A stretch of 64,000 nucleotides of DNA from Bacteroidales bacterium (GTDB taxonomy: Bacteria > Bacteroidota > Bacteroidia > Bacteroidales > JAADJA01). The notes beneath the pieces are model-generated. The model was given only the letters and a program-made list of their open reading frames with translations, was not told the DNA's origin and ran no database searches. Location of the stretch: NCBI GenBank assembly GCA_016783885.1, contig JADHVR010000004.1, positions 1 to 64,000 on the forward strand, written 5' to 3'. Shown here in pieces: positions 5,013-49,612 of this stretch; the stretch's first letter is position 1; every line of letters begins with the position of its first letter. A program made the translations under genes and the position numbers.

Positions 5013-6404
5013 ATGCTTTCAAAAAAATTAAAATTACAAGAACTTCCTGAGTCTGACAGTGTTTTAACACCAACTTATGGACGAAGGGGGTTAAATGTTG
5101 ATGTTCCGAAATATGAAATGCCGGAAATTGAAATGTTACCACGAACTGCTTACAATATTGTTCATGACGAATTGATGCTTGACGGTAATTCAAGATTGAA
5201 CCTTGCAACTTTCGTAACAACGTGGATGGAGCCTGAGGCAAGACAGCTTATGGCTGAAACATTTGATAAAAATATGATTGATAAGGATGAATATCCTCAA
5301 ACTGCCGAACTCGAAATGCGTTGCGTAAATATGCTTGCAAGATTATGGAATTCACCTGACCATGAAGAAGCAACCGGCTGCTCAACAATTGGCTCCAGCG
5401 AAGCTGTTCATCTTGGCGGTATGGCTATGAAATGGAAATGGCGTGAGCGCATGAGGGCAAAAGGAAAACCGACTGATAAACCAAACCTGGTTTTGGGAAT
5501 AGATGTTCAGATTTGCTGGGAGAAATTTTGCAGATACTGGGATGTAGAACCCAGGTTTATTTACATGGAAGGCGACCGTTATATTATCAATGCCGAAGAA
5601 GTCGTGAAATTATGCGATGAAAACACTATTGGTGTAGCAGTTATAATGGGAACAACTTTCACAGGGCAATACGAACCTGTTAAGGAAATTAATGATGCAT
5701 TAGATAAGCTGAATAAGGAAACCGGCTGGGAAATCCCAATCCATGTTGATGGAGCAAGCGGCGGTTTTATTGCTCCTTTTATCCAACCCGAAATAGAATG
5801 GGATTTCAGGTTAAAATGGGTTAAATCAATCAATGCTTCAGGACATAAGTATGGTTTGGTTTATCCGGGTGTTGGCTGGGTTGTTTGGCGAGACAAAAAC
5901 GAACTCCCTGAAGACCTGATATTTTATGTGAATTATCTTGGCGGAGAAATGCCAACTTTTGCACTTAGTTTTTCACGCCCCGGAAGCCAGATTGTTGCCC
6001 AATACTATAATTTTCTCAGGTTAGGCAAGGAGGGATACAGGAGTATTCAGCAATCTTGTCATGATGTGGCGCTTTATCTATCCGGTGAAATAGCCAGACT
6101 TGGCCCGTTCGAACTTGTAAGTGATGGTAGTGATATTCCTGTTTTTACCTGGAAGCTTAAGGAAGAAACCAACTTTACTTTGTACGATATGTCTGAACGG
6201 CTTCGCGATAGAGGATGGCTGATTCCGGCATATTCAATGCCTAAAAACCGTGAAGACCTAATTGTTGAACGTATTGTTGTAAAAGATGGTTTTAGCCGCG
6301 ATATGGCAAATCTTTTATTAGATGATATGAAACGGCATTTGAAATTCTTTGCATCACAACCTGATTATAAATCAAAGAAGACCGGGTCTCACTTTCATCA
6401 TTAA
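5013..6404 (+). CDS. gadB: Glutamate decarboxylase (PLP-dependent, group II)
   Basis: 463 aa; HVDGASGGFIAPF, NASGHKYGLVYPGVGW PLP-lysine motif, GadA/B-like. Confidence 0.95.
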   Translation: MLSKKLKLQELPESDSVLTPTYGRRGLNVDVPKYEMPEIEMLPRTAYNIVHDELMLDGNSRLNLATFVTTWMEPEARQLMAETFDKNMIDKDEYPQTAELEMRCVNMLARLWNSPDHEEATGCSTIGSSEAVHLGGMAMKWKWRERMRAKGKPTDKPNLVLGIDVQICWEKFCRYWDVEPRFIYMEGDRYIINAEEVVKLCDENTIGVAVIMGTTFTGQYEPVKEINDALDKLNKETGWEIPIHVDGASGGFIAPFIQPEIEWDFRLKWVKSINASGHKYGLVYPGVGWVVWRDKNELPEDLIFYVNYLGGEMPTFALSFSRPGSQIVAQYYNFLRLGKEGYRSIQQSCHDVALYLSGEIARLGPFELVSDGSDIPVFTWKLKEETNFTLYDMSERLRDRGWLIPAYSMPKNREDLIVERIVVKDGFSRDMANLLLDDMKRHLKFFASQPDYKSKKTGSHFHH

Positions 6405-6413
6405 CAATTATGT

Positions 6414-9400
6414 TTATTTAACTACCGTCATCTTCTTCGAATCACTTGTTTTTCCGTTTATGTTAATTGAATAAAAATACATACCGTTGGACATGCCATT
6501 GGCGTCGAATTCAACATAATGAACCCCACCGGTTTTCACTCCCTCGTTATAAGATTTTACAAGCTGTCCGGTGTAGTTGTAAACATTAATGCTTACGGTT
6601 GCAGCTTCTTCAATCCTATAGAAGATTTGAGTTAAACCGTTGAAAGGATTGGGTATGTTTTGCAGCAATTCGCCGCTCTTAAGCTGACCAAGACTTTCTT
6701 TCATGGTCTTACTCAACTCATCACCCGGCAGTAATGAAAGCAGGTAATCCCTGTCATCCTCGAATTGCTTGCGCGATACAGGCTTGTATTGAGCCATGTT
6801 ACCAACGTAAGCCGATTTGAATCCACCGTTTTCCATAAGGAAATAAGTGTAACCTAAATCAATAATAGCAAAGATGCTATCTTCCAATGATTCGGGATTC
6901 TGTATCACATCTTCAAACCAGGCTATGGCGGTTTGCCAGTTTTCTAATTTAATTTCGCAGAAATTGATTAGAAAGTCTGCTAGTTTGTTTAGTTCAGGAC
7001 TGTTGGTAATGTTAGGTTCTGAATCGTAGTAAGTTTTTAGCTCAGTATAATTATTACTTACAAAAGCCTCAAGAGAGTAAATTTCTTTTAATGAAGCCTG
7101 TGAATATTTTGAAGCAGGATAGAGACTAATGATTTGCAGGAAGTCGGCTTTGGCACCGGCATAATCTTCGGCAACGATTTTATCTCTTGCGGCAAGGTAC
7201 ATCCCTTCGGCTTCCGAACCTTCGCCCGAACCGCTACCGCTCATGCACTCCCATACAGGCTCCCATAAATAACTCTCATAAGGGTCAAGGTCATCTTCAG
7301 GGTTGAAGTTATATCCCCAGCAGTTGTTCCTAACATCGAGACCATCTTCCTGTCCGGTATATTTTACCAATGGATCGCCCGGCAGGTTGTCGTCATCCTG
7401 TATTAAGTTCCAATGGAAATATTGCGGAAAGCTGCCTCTTGTAGCAAGTACTTCATAAGAATTATTGTCTTTTATCTCCTGCGTAACATTATGATTATCT
7501 CCTTCTATGTGTACCTGGCTTCTGTCAAGGCATTTTATACCATAACTATTATCAACAATTTCACTATGCAAAATGTCCACCGTTGTATTGTATACCGTTA
7601 TCCCCGTAGCGCTATTTCCTGTAATATCACTATTACTTATCTGTTGATATTTATTACCATAACCGCAATTAAACAGGTTAATTGCATCTGAACAGTCGCT
7701 TATCATACAATTGTCTATTTTAAAATTAGGATAATTATCGATGTCAATTGCCGGAACGGTTTGTAGCCCTGAGAAATTGCAATTACCGGTAATACTTACA
7801 AGCCTGTTGACTGCGTCTGCATTTGCAATATGAACGAAAGAATAAATAAATTCGGTGTTGCTTATATCGAAATCTCCGTTGAAACCGTAAATGCCGCTGT
7901 CAGTGAAATCGGAATTTGTAACAGTTAGCTCATCATTATAAGCAATGAGGGCAGAACCTGAGAAGTGCGCATAATCCATTGTAACATCAATGTTTGTATT
8001 ATTAATTCTCAACTGGAGTTGAGCGTCTTCTTCGGCAATGAAGCTTACGTTTGATCCGATAGAAACATTTCCATCTATTATTAGTTTACAAATTCCTTTT
8101 TTAGCAAGTATTGTAACATTACCTTGTAAAATAAGTGAGCTTCCCTGGTTAATATGGATTTCGCTTTCGTACATATCTATCTGTACTCCATCCTCAACTG
8201 TTAAGGTAGCCCCGTTGACTACGGTAGGTGTAAAGCGGGATACCATATTGCTGAACAATAACAAGTCTTCTTCAATATAGGTTTCGTGTGGAATTAAGTC
8301 GTATGGGATTTCAAACACCAAATCTGAATTCACAGGTAATTCAATATTTGTTTCAGGATATTGTAATTCAAATACTTCGCCCCATCTTCTGTCAACTAAA
8401 GTCCAATATTCAAGTGTGCCAGATTCCGAGCTGTTACTATTTATTCTTAGAAATATTTTCCCGAAATCATCCTGGGCAAAATAATGACCGTAATTTAGCG
8501 AAAATTCCAACCACGGGTCATAGTCAATACCTTGCATTGGATTAGCTCCTCCGGCATATTTGAAAAATGTATTTCTCCAATCATCATATGCAGATGGAGG
8601 ATTACTGTTTGCATTCTCTCCCTGTGCCATTCGTACTCTCATATTGTTTCGTTTGTTATGAACCAACTCACCTTTTATTTCAATTAACGGCTCATAACCA
8701 TCATCAACATGCTCTACAATTGCAGATTGATTAGTACACTCAGCCATAGTTTTATATATTACCCAAACAAAACCTTCCTGTGCATAATCGTAATGGCCTA
8801 AGCCTACTACAATAAATGCTCCTATTTCCCAATCTCTTACATCAATATTACCATCTCCGTTCAGGTCAATGTTATTTGTAAACTGGCCATCTTCGTTAAA
8901 ATCCCACATTACATCATCGCAATATCCAACAATTGTCATGGCATGGTTACAAGCCGTACCCCACTCTACTACTGCTTTATCTCCTGCATGATTACTTGGG
9001 GGAAGGAGATCTACTGTGCTTGTGCATGCTCCAAAGTTTGAAAAAACTATCAGTCCTCCGGTTTCCGCACCTTCGTTGTGGTTGGCAAGCCAGTGTTTCA
9101 TCAGTTCATGTTTTTCAGGGTTATACATTGGGTAAATTTGCGAATGACTCTCTATTCTGTTTTGATAAGAAGAAAAATATTTATCATAACCATGCATCCA
9201 CATTGTATAGTTTTCCTCATAATTATCCTCATCACAACTACCCCATTCAATACAACTTGGACAACCGTTTGTTTTAAGAATATTTAAATTACCGGTAAAC
9301 GAAGAACCCGCACCAAAAACACCGCCGTTTAAAAAGTTCCATGTGAAGTTTGCCGGGCATTTGTTTTCATCATACAGTCCGTAGGCTTCACGTACGCGGT

Positions 9401-21563: not shown

Positions 21564-22211
21564 ATGGCAAAAAAAGAATCGTCATTCGTAAATATGGTTT
21601 TAACGCTCTTTGTGGTAACTGCCATTGCTGCACTTACGCTTGGTGGTGTTTATACGGTTACAAAAGAGCCGATAGCAATTGCTAAACTGCTGAAAATAGA
21701 AAAAGCAATCAGTGAAGTGCTTCCTGAATTTGATAATATAAGTGAGTATAAAATTTTACCGGAAGGTGGAAGTGATTCTTTAACATTTTTTAAAGCGACA
21801 AAAAATGGTGAGGAAGTCGGCACTGCAATCAAGACTTATACTGATAGAGGCTTTAGCGGCAGGGTCTGGATCATGGTTGGGTTAAATCCGGAAGGTGTTA
21901 TCAATAATACAGCCGTGCTCGAACATAAAGAAACTCCCGGACTTGGCGATAAAATGGATAAAACGAAATCTGATTGGAGCAATCAGTTTAATGGGAAAAA
22001 CCCGACGGAATTTAAACTAAAAGTAACAAAAAATGGAGGTGATGTAGATGCTATCACAGCCGCTACCATCAGCTCACGTGCTTTCTGCGATGCAGTTCAA
22101 AGGGCTTATGATGAGTTTAAGAAGCAAGAGTCAAGAATCAAGAGTCAAGAACCAAGAGTCAAGAATCAAGAATCAAGAGTCAAGAACCAAGAAGCAAGAA
22201 CCAAAAAATAA
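21564..22211 (+). CDS. rnfG: Rnf complex subunit RnfG
   Basis: GFSGRVWIMVGLNPEGVI...HKETPGLGDKM...VDAITAATISSRAF; start set at MAKKESSF; C-terminal repeat-derived tail. Confidence 0.93.
   Translation: MAKKESSFVNMVLTLFVVTAIAALTLGGVYTVTKEPIAIAKLLKIEKAISEVLPEFDNISEYKILPEGGSDSLTFFKATKNGEEVGTAIKTYTDRGFSGRVWIMVGLNPEGVINNTAVLEHKETPGLGDKMDKTKSDWSNQFNGKNPTEFKLKVTKNGGDVDAITAATISSRAFCDAVQRAYDEFKKQESRIKSQEPRVKNQESRVKNQEARTKK
22121..22204 (+). repeat. 12-unit heptamer array (GARNCAA)12 in the 3' end of rnfG
   Basis: gaagcaa gagtcaa gaatcaa gagtcaa gaaccaa gagtcaa gaatcaa gaatcaa gagtcaa gaaccaa gaagcaa gaaccaa. Confidence 0.9.
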
Positions 22212-22256
22212 GAAATAAGAATTAAGATTATAATTAACTAAATAAAATATCATAAG

Positions 22257-22649
22257 ATGCATAATTTTAAGGAATTGAAAATTTGGCAAAAATCAAGAGT
22301 TCTAACAAAAAAAATATATTTATTAATAAAAGATTATCCTGAAGAAGAGAAATTTGGACTTGTTAGCCAGATTAGGAGATCGGCTATTTCAATTCCTTCG
22401 AATATAGCTGAAGGTTCAGGAAGAAATTCTGATCGGGATTTTCGTAGATTTTTAAATATTGCTCTTTCATCAGCATTCGAACTTGAAACACAGATTATAC
22501 TATCTTTTGATTTAGATTATCTGTTAGAAATAGATTATTTAAAAATTTCTGAGGAAATACAGGAGGTCCAAAAAATGATATTCGGATTTAGAAAATCATT
22601 AAGTAAAGTAAATAAGTCTTATAATTTTTTATTATCATTATTATTTTAA
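22257..22649 (+). CDS. Four helix bundle protein (23S rRNA intervening-sequence/S23 family)
   Basis: MHNFKELKIWQKSRVLTKKIY...FGLVSQIRRSAISIPSNIAEGSGR. Confidence 0.93.
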   Translation: MHNFKELKIWQKSRVLTKKIYLLIKDYPEEEKFGLVSQIRRSAISIPSNIAEGSGRNSDRDFRRFLNIALSSAFELETQIILSFDLDYLLEIDYLKISEEIQEVQKMIFGFRKSLSKVNKSYNFLLSLLF

Positions 22650-22670
22650 ATATATCATAAATCAATTTTC

Positions 22671-22698
22671 TTGATTCTTGAATCTTGGTTCTTGTATC
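22671..22698 (-). repeat. Inverted heptamer array TTGATTC-TTGAATC-TTGGTTC-TTGTATC
   Basis: Reverse complement reads GATACAA-GAACCAA-GATTCAA-GAATCAA, same family as 22121-22204. Confidence 0.85.
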
Positions 22699-22715
22699 TT
22701 TTAATATTTATAAAT

Positions 22716-23300
22716 ATGAATCAGTTACAAAATTTCACTAAAGGTTTTATAAAGGACAACCCGGTATTCGTATTACTTCTCGGGCTTTGTCCGACACTGG
22801 GGGTTACTACTACAGCAATTAACGGATTAGGAATGGGATTGGCGACTACGTTTGTTCTTGTAATGTCGAATTTGGTAGTATCACTTATTAAAAATTTAAT
22901 TCCCGACAAGGTCAGGATCCCGTCGTTCATTGTAATAATTGCATCCTTTGTTACGATTGTTGAACTTACAATGCAGGCATACACACCTGCATTGTTTGAA
23001 GCGCTGGGATTATTTATTCCGCTTATTGTTGTTAACTGTATTGTGCTTGGCAGGGCAGAAGCATTTGCATCTAAGAATAATATTATCTCTTCTGTCATTG
23101 ATGGACTTGGAATGGGATTAGGTTTTGCTTTTGCTTTGTTCTTGCTTGGTGCTGTGAGAGAGATTTTGGGAAGCGGTGCAATTTTAAGCATGAAATTTAT
23201 CCAGGGAGATGGAGTGCTGGTGTTTATATTACCGCCAGGTGCTTTTATTGCTCTTGGATATTTAATTGCGATAATGAACAGGTTGAAGAAAACGACATAA
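22716..23300 (+). CDS. rnfE: Rnf complex subunit RnfE
   Basis: [36 protein letters not shown]. Confidence 0.95.
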
Positions 23301-23303
23301 AGA

Positions 23304-23373
23304 ATTTTAGATTTTAGATTTTAGATTTTTTAAATTGCAAAATAGTCAATAGAAAATAATCAATAATCAATAA
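23304..23373 (+). repeat. Heptamer arrays (ATTTTAG)3 and (NMAATAR)5 between rnfE and rnfA
   Basis: 23304-23324 ATTTTAGx3; 23339-23373 AAAATAG TCAATAG AAAATAA TCAATAA TCAATAA. Confidence 0.75.
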
Positions 23374-47092: not shown

Positions 47093-49612
47093 TTATAAGG
47101 GAACCCATGATGTTCCGTTATAATAATACAGTTGTTTGGTTGAGTTATTATAATATATCATACCTTCCTCTTTAGGGCTTGGCGCTAACGACCTCGGAGC
47201 AAGTTTCAGCACATCATTAATGGTTACTTTCCCATTGTTAAACTCTCCATATATTAAAGGTGTGCTGGTATCGGAATTTGAGATGTATAGTCTGTTCGAT
47301 CCGGTTTCATTATAGCCAGCTTTGAAGCCAATAAATAAATTATTACTTCCTGTTTCATTCGAATAACCAGCTTCGTTGCCAATAAAGGTATTTTCCCCGC
47401 CTGTAGTATTGTTGTATCCTGCATTCCATCCGACAAAATGATTGTTAGAAACAATACTGTTCCATCCGGCTTTAAAACCGATAAATAAACTTTGGGATGC
47501 GTTTGTGTTGGAATATCCTGCTTCGTAACCAATGAAAGTATTCTGCCCGGATATTGTATTATTAAATCCTGCATGATAACCGACAAAATGATTATCCCAA
47601 CCGGTGCTGGTGTTCCATCCTGCCTGATGGCCGATAAAAATATTATTGTGCGCATCTGTGTTTGAATAACCGGCCTGGTGGCCAATAAAGACATTTTCTG
47701 TACCCGTAGAGTTTTGATATCCTGCATCATAACCGATAAAAGTATTTAATCCGGCGATATTGTTGAAACCAGATTCAAATCCTATAAAAGTATTGAATCC
47801 CTGATCCTGGTTGGAAAAGCCTGAATTATGGCCAATAAAAACATTTCCAGCACCAGAGGTATTTTGTGAGCCTGCGGTAGAACCAATAAAGGTATTGCTT
47901 CCTGCAATGTTATTGTATCCTGTTCCGAAACCAACAAATGTATTATTGGGCTGGTCTGAATTACTAAATCCGGCATCTTTTCCGATAAAAACATTTGCAC
48001 CACCAGAGGTATTTTGTGAACCTGCGGAAGAACCAATAAAGGTATTGCTTCCTGCAGTGTTATTGTACCCTGCCCCAAATCCCACAAATGTGTTAAAGGC
48101 CTGGTCCAGGTTGCTGTATCCGGCATCTTTGCCGATAAAAATATTCGCCTCTCCGGTTGTATTGGTCCTTCCGGCATTGTTTCCGATTATTGTATTATTT
48201 GCTGCTGTATTATTGTATCCCGCACTGGAACCGATAATTACGTTGTTGGATCCGGTTTGGTTATTTCGTCCAGCTTCGTTCCCAATAAAAGTATTTTCTA
48301 TACCTGAGATATTGTTAAATCCGGCCTGGTATCCTATAAATGCATTGTTTGAAGCGTTATTATACCGACCCGCAAAGTATCCGATAAATAAGTTGTGACT
48401 TCCTGCTTGATTTGCAAGTCCGGTCGAATGGCCTATAAATGTATTTTGTTCACCATTTGTATTGCTAAAACCGGCTTTATAACCTACAAAATGATTATCG
48501 GATATGATATTATTACGGCCCGATTGATAACCGATACAAATATTATTGTTTCCGATTTGATTTGCTTCTCCGGCCAGATGGCCTATAAATGTATTTCTTG
48601 ATGCAGTCTGGTTTGCTCCTCCTGCTCTATAACCATAATAAGTATTGTGTTCTCCGGTAGTATTTGTATAGCCAGTCATGAATCCCGTAAAAGTATTTTG
48701 TTTTCCTTCGGTATTTGAGTGTCCGGCTCTGTCGCCAATAAATGTATTTAATTCACCGGTAGTGTTGTGATTCCCTGCCTTATACCCAACGAAAGTATTG
48801 AAATTAGCTTCTTCATTGTTATACCCGGCTTGATATCCGATAAATGTATTATTCTCCCCTGTTGTATTATCAAAACCGGTCATATAACCTATAAATGTAT
48901 TCCATTTGCCGGTGGAGTTTGTATAACCTGACTTATAGCCAAGAAAAGAATTGTGTTCACCCTCTGTTGTGAATAAACCGGCCTGATGACCAATAATTGT
49001 ATTTCGTACACCTACTCCGGCGGTTAAAAGGCCACCCGTTCCCTGCCCTACAAGTACATTAAAGTCAGGATCAAATGTCTGAATATTTTTTCCATTGAAT
49101 CTATAGGTTGGCGTACCCCCATTATAAAACCGAATGATGTCATCATCGGGTGTTGCTTCCACTTCAATGTAAGTATCTCCATCAGTATCCTTTACAACAG
49201 AGGAGCTATGTGCTTTTTCCGAATACAAAGCATACGGAACCGAAAGCAACTGAGATGTTCCCATAACCACATAAGATGATCCGCCTGCCGGATCGAGTTC
49301 AACTTCCATAAATATATCCGAATCAGCCCAGTTAATGTCTTCGAAAACACCCGATACTATAACGCCTTCTCCGATGTTCAAATTTGCAACGCCAAAGTCA
49401 TTGGTCGTAGTTGAATGTGTTTCCTGGTAAACTACCGGCCCGCCTGCTGTTCCTTCGTGAATGGAAATTTGAAATGAAACAGATTGATTAGCTAAAATTT
49501 CACCTGTGTTGTCTCTTACCACAGACTGGTACTTGAATGCCTGCGGAGGTTGTGCTAAGGCTGTAACAAGTCCTGTAAGACTTGCCAGCATGATAAGTAA
49601 AACTTTTTTCAT
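47093..49612 (-). CDS. Secreted surface protein with 34 tandem NTFIGxxAGxxN repeats
   Basis: Signal peptide, N-domain, then 16-17-aa units such as NTFIGYQAGYNNEEANF, C-term KQLYYYNGTSWVPL. Confidence 0.88.
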   Translation of the reverse strand: MKKVLLIMLASLTGLVTALAQPPQAFKYQSVVRDNTGEILANQSVSFQISIHEGTAGGPVVYQETHSTTTNDFGVANLNIGEGVIVSGVFEDINWADSDIFMEVELDPAGGSSYVVMGTSQLLSVPYALYSEKAHSSSVVKDTDGDTYIEVEATPDDDIIRFYNGGTPTYRFNGKNIQTFDPDFNVLVGQGTGGLLTAGVGVRNTIIGHQAGLFTTEGEHNSFLGYKSGYTNSTGKWNTFIGYMTGFDNTTGENNTFIGYQAGYNNEEANFNTFVGYKAGNHNTTGELNTFIGDRAGHSNTEGKQNTFTGFMTGYTNTTGEHNTYYGYRAGGANQTASRNTFIGHLAGEANQIGNNNICIGYQSGRNNIISDNHFVGYKAGFSNTNGEQNTFIGHSTGLANQAGSHNLFIGYFAGRYNNASNNAFIGYQAGFNNISGIENTFIGNEAGRNNQTGSNNVIIGSSAGYNNTAANNTIIGNNAGRTNTTGEANIFIGKDAGYSNLDQAFNTFVGFGAGYNNTAGSNTFIGSSAGSQNTSGGANVFIGKDAGFSNSDQPNNTFVGFGTGYNNIAGSNTFIGSTAGSQNTSGAGNVFIGHNSGFSNQDQGFNTFIGFESGFNNIAGLNTFIGYDAGYQNSTGTENVFIGHQAGYSNTDAHNNIFIGHQAGWNTSTGWDNHFVGYHAGFNNTISGQNTFIGYEAGYSNTNASQSLFIGFKAGWNSIVSNNHFVGWNAGYNNTTGGENTFIGNEAGYSNETGSNNLFIGFKAGYNETGSNRLYISNSDTSTPLIYGEFNNGKVTINDVLKLAPRSLAPSPKEEGMIYYNNSTKQLYYYNGTSWVPL

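Follow-up and report, generated by a model that had tools for sequence, protein, structure and literature searches.

An S23 gene with matched heptamer arms in the rnf operon of a Bacteroidales bacterium looks like an overlooked kind of mobile DNA

Background

How did a gene for an S23-type four-helix-bundle protein come to stand between rnfG and rnfE in the rnf operon of a Bacteroidales bacterium, and what have the heptamer arrays on both sides of it to do with its presence there? Ribosomal RNA genes have long been known to harbour S23 as a parasite-like insert. In the rRNA intervening sequences (IVS) of Leptospira and Coxiella, an S23 ORF lies between inverted repeats and the insert is cut by RNase III, its origin being unclear (PMC4990558). 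Heptamer arrays have been described separately: the cyanobacterial STRRs are intergenic, hairpin-forming 7-bp repeats, e.g., between hupS and hupL, with no known function (PMC2670836), and TAACTGA direct repeats form intergenic arrays in Beggiatoaceae, Cyanobacteria and Bacteroidetes, with a suspected role in rearrangement (PMC4679880). A paper joining S23 genes with heptamer arrays was not found in the literature searched, subscription papers lying mostly outside it.

Results and discussion

The window, a stretch of 64,000 nucleotides, presents the co-directional gene order rnfB, rnfC, rnfD, rnfG, S23, rnfE, rnfA. On the forward strand, rnfG for the FMN-binding subunit (21564-22211; PF04205, 73 bits) is followed by the S23 gene (22257-22649, 130 amino acids) and the downstream host gene rnfE (22716-23300; PF02508, 233 bits), confirming that an S23 ORF separates the two rnf genes. 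Its product is a family member by PF05635 (138.8 bits, E=9e-41, curated cut-off 33.8) and by TIGR02436 (131 bits, cut-off 24), and structures of homologues have been solved (2gsc, 2rld). Tandem repeat analysis (TRF) and motif matching located the left array on the forward strand at 22119-22227, with a (GARNCAA)12 core at 22121-22204: 12 exact in-register matches, at 22121, 22128 and so on to 22198, whereas 2000 shufflings of this segment gave no more than 3. The right array at 22668-22700, located by TRF, alignment and motif matching, carries the heptamers on the reverse strand as (TTGNNTC)4, with four exact matches at 22671-22692 and a family span of 22671-22698. The repeat counts of the earlier note were thus exact. 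Its reading of the arrays as terminal inverted repeats holds in so far as they are inverted, with an alignment score of 27 that 3 of 1500 random window positions of equal spacing reached; however, the best pairing is an imperfect one of 33 bp (left arm 22140-22172 on the forward strand with 22668-22700) and not the whole array, and the 3' end of rnfG lies within the left array, which encodes the last approximately 25 residues of RnfG (KKQESRIKSQEPRVKNQESRVKNQEARTKK). RnfG of the close genome G013 terminates ahead of any such array.

Between the window arms no ORF besides S23 was present, and a transposase or integrase of its own was absent. An S23 ORF looped between terminal inverted repeats, as here between the 33-bp imperfect arms, is a feature of the IVS, but the gene lies between rnfG and rnfE instead of in a 23S rRNA helix, and no rRNA was detected in the window at the Rfam gathering score; no known RNA family was found in the window either. 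Terminal inverted repeats together with empty sites in relatives are features of inverted-repeat transposons and gene cassettes. The homologous four-helix bundle bAvd belongs to diversity-generating retroelements, but the window protein reached only 27.8 bits with DivGenRetAVD, below the Avd cut-off of 80, and its neighbours are Rnf subunits. A phage origin and a defence system were rejected, as the phage collection gave no S23 match and PADLOC no match. Elsewhere in the window, the rnfE-rnfA gap holds two short 7-bp arrays (23304-23373; ATTTTAG, then AATAATC) with no gene between them, possibly the scar of a lost cassette, and a 150-bp unit occurs at 47831-48145 in two tandem copies, 84 % alike.

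That the gene is an insertion, as had been proposed, was supported by the relatives. S23 occupies 2 of 14 readable rnfG-rnfE junctions, those of the window's genome (G000) and of G003, whose S23 is 62 % identical; the 12 other congeners lack it, among them one with a 98 % identical RnfE, and the junction in G013 is empty, a distribution that gain or loss of S23 may explain. A gene conserved at this junction across the clade without arrays, which would have spoken against insertion, was not the pattern observed. At the dxr locus only G000 has S23, most others having a gap of a few bases, while at sufB-sufC the gene is present in G000 and G004 and G003 retains a GATTTACG array, the gene being absent. 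The gldA-gldF junction has S23 in G000, a 3' coding remnant in G007 and G014 (VEIISIFTAIVKSSQIR and KEIINILTSIDRTSQSY versus EEIINILTAIVKSSQMR), and one or both arrays in G013, G001 and G012. The cassette at this junction is thus old in the genus and was lost several times, with arrays outliving the gene; this clearest same-site comparison records loss, not gain.

Exact presence and absence was also found in an element family with fixed ends (CATAGCGCCATAAATGGC ... ACAGGATAATAGTATA), for which G000 gave 6 matches, G013 gave 9 and the other congeners none. In the copy on G013:C157 S23 is the sole gene, and internally deleted copies exist elsewhere. Empty forms at exact sites between the two close genomes were G013:C9 for G000:C126 and G000:C145 for G013:C156; a possible target duplication, AACAC, was seen at one polymorphic site only. 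S23-bearing DNA is mobile in this genome, as had been suspected. Since S23 and its arms are here inside a larger element, this proves movement of S23 DNA and not that the arms alone suffice; S23 and arms could be passengers of the larger polymorphic element. Among the genomes compared, no transposition of a typical cassette like that of the window was caught, and neither a target duplication nor an enzyme was identified for such a cassette.

The inspection of flanks was extended to the 14 PF05635 matches in G000. Most of these genes are situated between inverted arrays with an own word at each locus: GATTTACG at sufB-sufC, elsewhere GGGTGAA, GTAATTC, GGTTGCT and others. The pattern does not hold for L009, which has no arms, for the Avd-like L013, which has none either and adjoins variable-region repeats, or for L020, which has an array upstream only. 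L013 (G000:C47, around 6098-6403) is probably a diversity-generating retroelement, its Avd-like gene adjoining near-identical repeats that differ at scattered positions. At L020 (G000:C2), positions 8069-8184 form a near-perfect palindrome of CAAGANN heptamers, the word also found in the window; it contains no gene and hardly any loop. At L366 (G000:C52), a MITE-like element bounded by the terminal inverted repeats TTAATTAGTGTCTGTC...GACAGACACTAATTAA stands directly behind a CAAGANN array.

For the genus, stretches around 96 S23 genes from 17 congeneric genomes were compared, mostly drafts with contig ends falling in repeats. The inverted flank score, 250 bp upstream aligned with the reverse complement of 250 bp downstream, had a median of 19 and was at least 20 in 46 of the 96 cases. 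Flanks swapped between S23 loci had a median of 12 (34 of 960 at 20 or above) and other genes with intergenic gaps one of 14 (17 of 152; p=3e-9 versus S23). Direct repetition was rejected, the same-strand score showing no excess (median 13). The best arm period was 7 or 14. Beside S23 the G-rich strand pointed inward in 55 arrays and outward in 9, while elsewhere the polarity was only 35 to 21. Inverted arrays flank S23 genes generally, contrary to the possibility that other copies lack them, yet the anticipated GANNCAA was not shared, the heptamer being particular to each locus or S23 clade. A GANNCAA signal common to all four-helix-bundle genes was therefore rejected. Nor do the data show the arrays mediating insertion; they agree with arms that are part of the cassette and persist after its loss.

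Length divided the family. Long S23 proteins (at least 149 amino acids) are a vertically inherited clade without arms and serve as a built-in control: close pairs were at the same locus in 55 of 55 cases and arms were present in 1 of 15. Short S23 proteins had close pairs at different loci in 22 of 47 cases and arms in 45 of 81, about 44 % of the short genes scoring below 20; close pairs were defined by normalised bits of 0.5 for the long and 0.6 for the short comparison. Arms accompany the S23 lineages that change locus, not the lineage that stays. A dN/dS of 0.09 in close pairs indicates purifying selection on S23.

The pairing of arms could serve the RNA: the arms would pair in the polycistronic mRNA, RNase III would cut S23 out, and selection on RNA pairing would keep the match. 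RNase III excises the rRNA IVS of Coxiella (PMC4990558), and S23 is usually co-directional with both neighbours, as in 62 named loci. At 18 orthologous Flavobacterium loci the words vary between species while arms match within species (20.7 versus 16.5; 2 of 20000 permutations), and the duplex of own arms is more stable than one with arms of other species (-39 versus -32 kcal/mol). The differences between arms do not show the expected trace, however. Over 112 loci G.U-compatible differences (232) were not enriched over A.C-type ones (249), so wobble was rejected as driver of arm matching; this argues against selection on RNA pairing and, by inference, for copying at the DNA level. An RNA element also leaves unexplained that related S23 genes have related arms at unrelated loci. 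Among loci with non-homologous neighbours, the more similar the S23 proteins, the more similar the arms, an effect seen on one strand only (Mantel r=0.25, 0 of 2000), permutation tests correcting for shared ancestry only in part; S23 proteins of the MKLEELQVY type, for example, are accompanied by GTAATT arrays in four genomes although their loci differ. We consider the RNA explanation unlikely.

This link between arm and S23 clade would equally be expected if S23 were a nucleic-acid-binding autoregulator, the arrays its binding sites and the other copies its regulon, without any mobility. Arrays of the window's family do lie, with no S23 gene, at a dozen or so further places between genes of this genome, and arrays may on this account have an independent origin. 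Binding motifs, however, need no common order of units, and order is kept: shuffling the units of one arm cost 4.0 points, while a re-trimmed null lost 1.6 (p=3e-10). The arms are therefore copies of each other in register, more than a pair of arrays that share a motif. Operators also fit poorly with short S23 genes that change locus and are polymorphic, and with arrays that remain as scars after S23 loss; this explanation is quite improbable. Passive slippage, by which replication slippage and hairpin template switching would produce heptamer arrays everywhere and S23 would merely be tolerant, is already disfavoured and seems very improbable. Measured on stretches around S23 genes, arrays in other intergenic DNA are indeed about 12 times as frequent as chance (0.47 versus 0.038 per kb in shuffles), but beside S23 the density is 3.6 per kb, polarity and inverted matching are specific to S23, and slippage does not account for the arm-clade link at unrelated loci.

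Outside the genus, a named set of 79-80 loci from Bacteroidota and a few other MAGs was scanned with a narrower profile, because the 22-member profile was too diverse for a contig scan, and is biased towards one S23 clade; its median inverted score was 19 versus 12 for swapped flanks (p=8e-23), with 35 of 79 at 20 or above versus 5 %. Fourteen plasmid loci, 13 from Cyanobacteria and one from Riemerella, had a median of 25.5 versus 12 when swapped. Inverted heptamer arrays flank the plasmid S23 genes of Nostoc, Calothrix and Geminocystis, most clearly as (GGGAACA)n in Nostoc and GGGAAAA/GGGAAGA in Geminocystis. At L305, L312 and L313, on cyanobacterial plasmids, S23 lies inside cas operons (cas6-S23-cas4 twice, cas10-S23-cmr3).

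Several known systems share parts of this anatomy. Like the 23S rRNA IVS (PMC4990558), the cassettes are part of a transcribed unit and have their S23 ORF looped out between terminal inverted repeats; unlike it, they are situated between protein genes of operons, many per genome, and the arms are tandem heptamers specific to locus or clade. The STRRs are likewise intergenic 7-bp repeats forming hairpins but were reported without S23, whereas here plasmid S23 genes stand between inverted arrays. TAACTGA repeats share the intergenic heptamer array and differ by one fixed word, direct orientation and no link to S23. MITEs and other inverted-repeat elements resemble the S23 elements in dispersed copies, internally deleted derivatives and exact presence/absence, yet S23 cassettes lack a transposase and a clear target duplication, and their arms vary by locus.

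Conclusions

The arms of S23 genes are inverted, in register, specific to locus and clade, G-rich inward, and matched despite divergence between species; sister genomes differ at exact sites in the presence of S23 DNA, and cassette loss leaves gene fragments and single arrays. The probable explanation is an IVS-like mobile S23 cassette with palindromic heptamer arms, some solitary arrays being its scars. The segment 22119-22700 would be a palindrome with heptamer arrays as arms and a small S23 gene as loop, an anatomy that would correspond to the S23 IVS of 23S rRNA but is placed between operon genes. S23, probably as an oligomer, may bind the arms typical of its clade when they form a hairpin or cruciform. 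The protein has no recognised catalytic domain; the cassette would move as an arm-bounded unit via host or foreign enzymes. Arm identity may be maintained by copying across the palindrome in replication or repair, and many solitary intergenic heptamer arrays would be scars of lost cassettes. More tentatively, and with somewhat less than even confidence, S23 cassettes may be widespread minimal selfish elements of Bacteroidota and Cyanobacteriota that move from one operon junction to another, each S23 protein recognising the heptamer palindrome that its clade carries; rRNA IVS would be members trapped in rRNA, and the long-unexplained heptanucleotide STRRs the arms and scars.

One anatomy joins three separate puzzles, the function of S23, the movement of rRNA IVS and the origin of heptanucleotide repeats, and it is testable in harmless bacteria that can be cultured. 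S23 proteins gain a candidate ligand in the arms flanking their own gene, and many of the heptamer arrays between genes may have no regulatory role and be relics. An S23 gene with matched heptamer arms in ordinary operons looks like an overlooked kind of mobile DNA.
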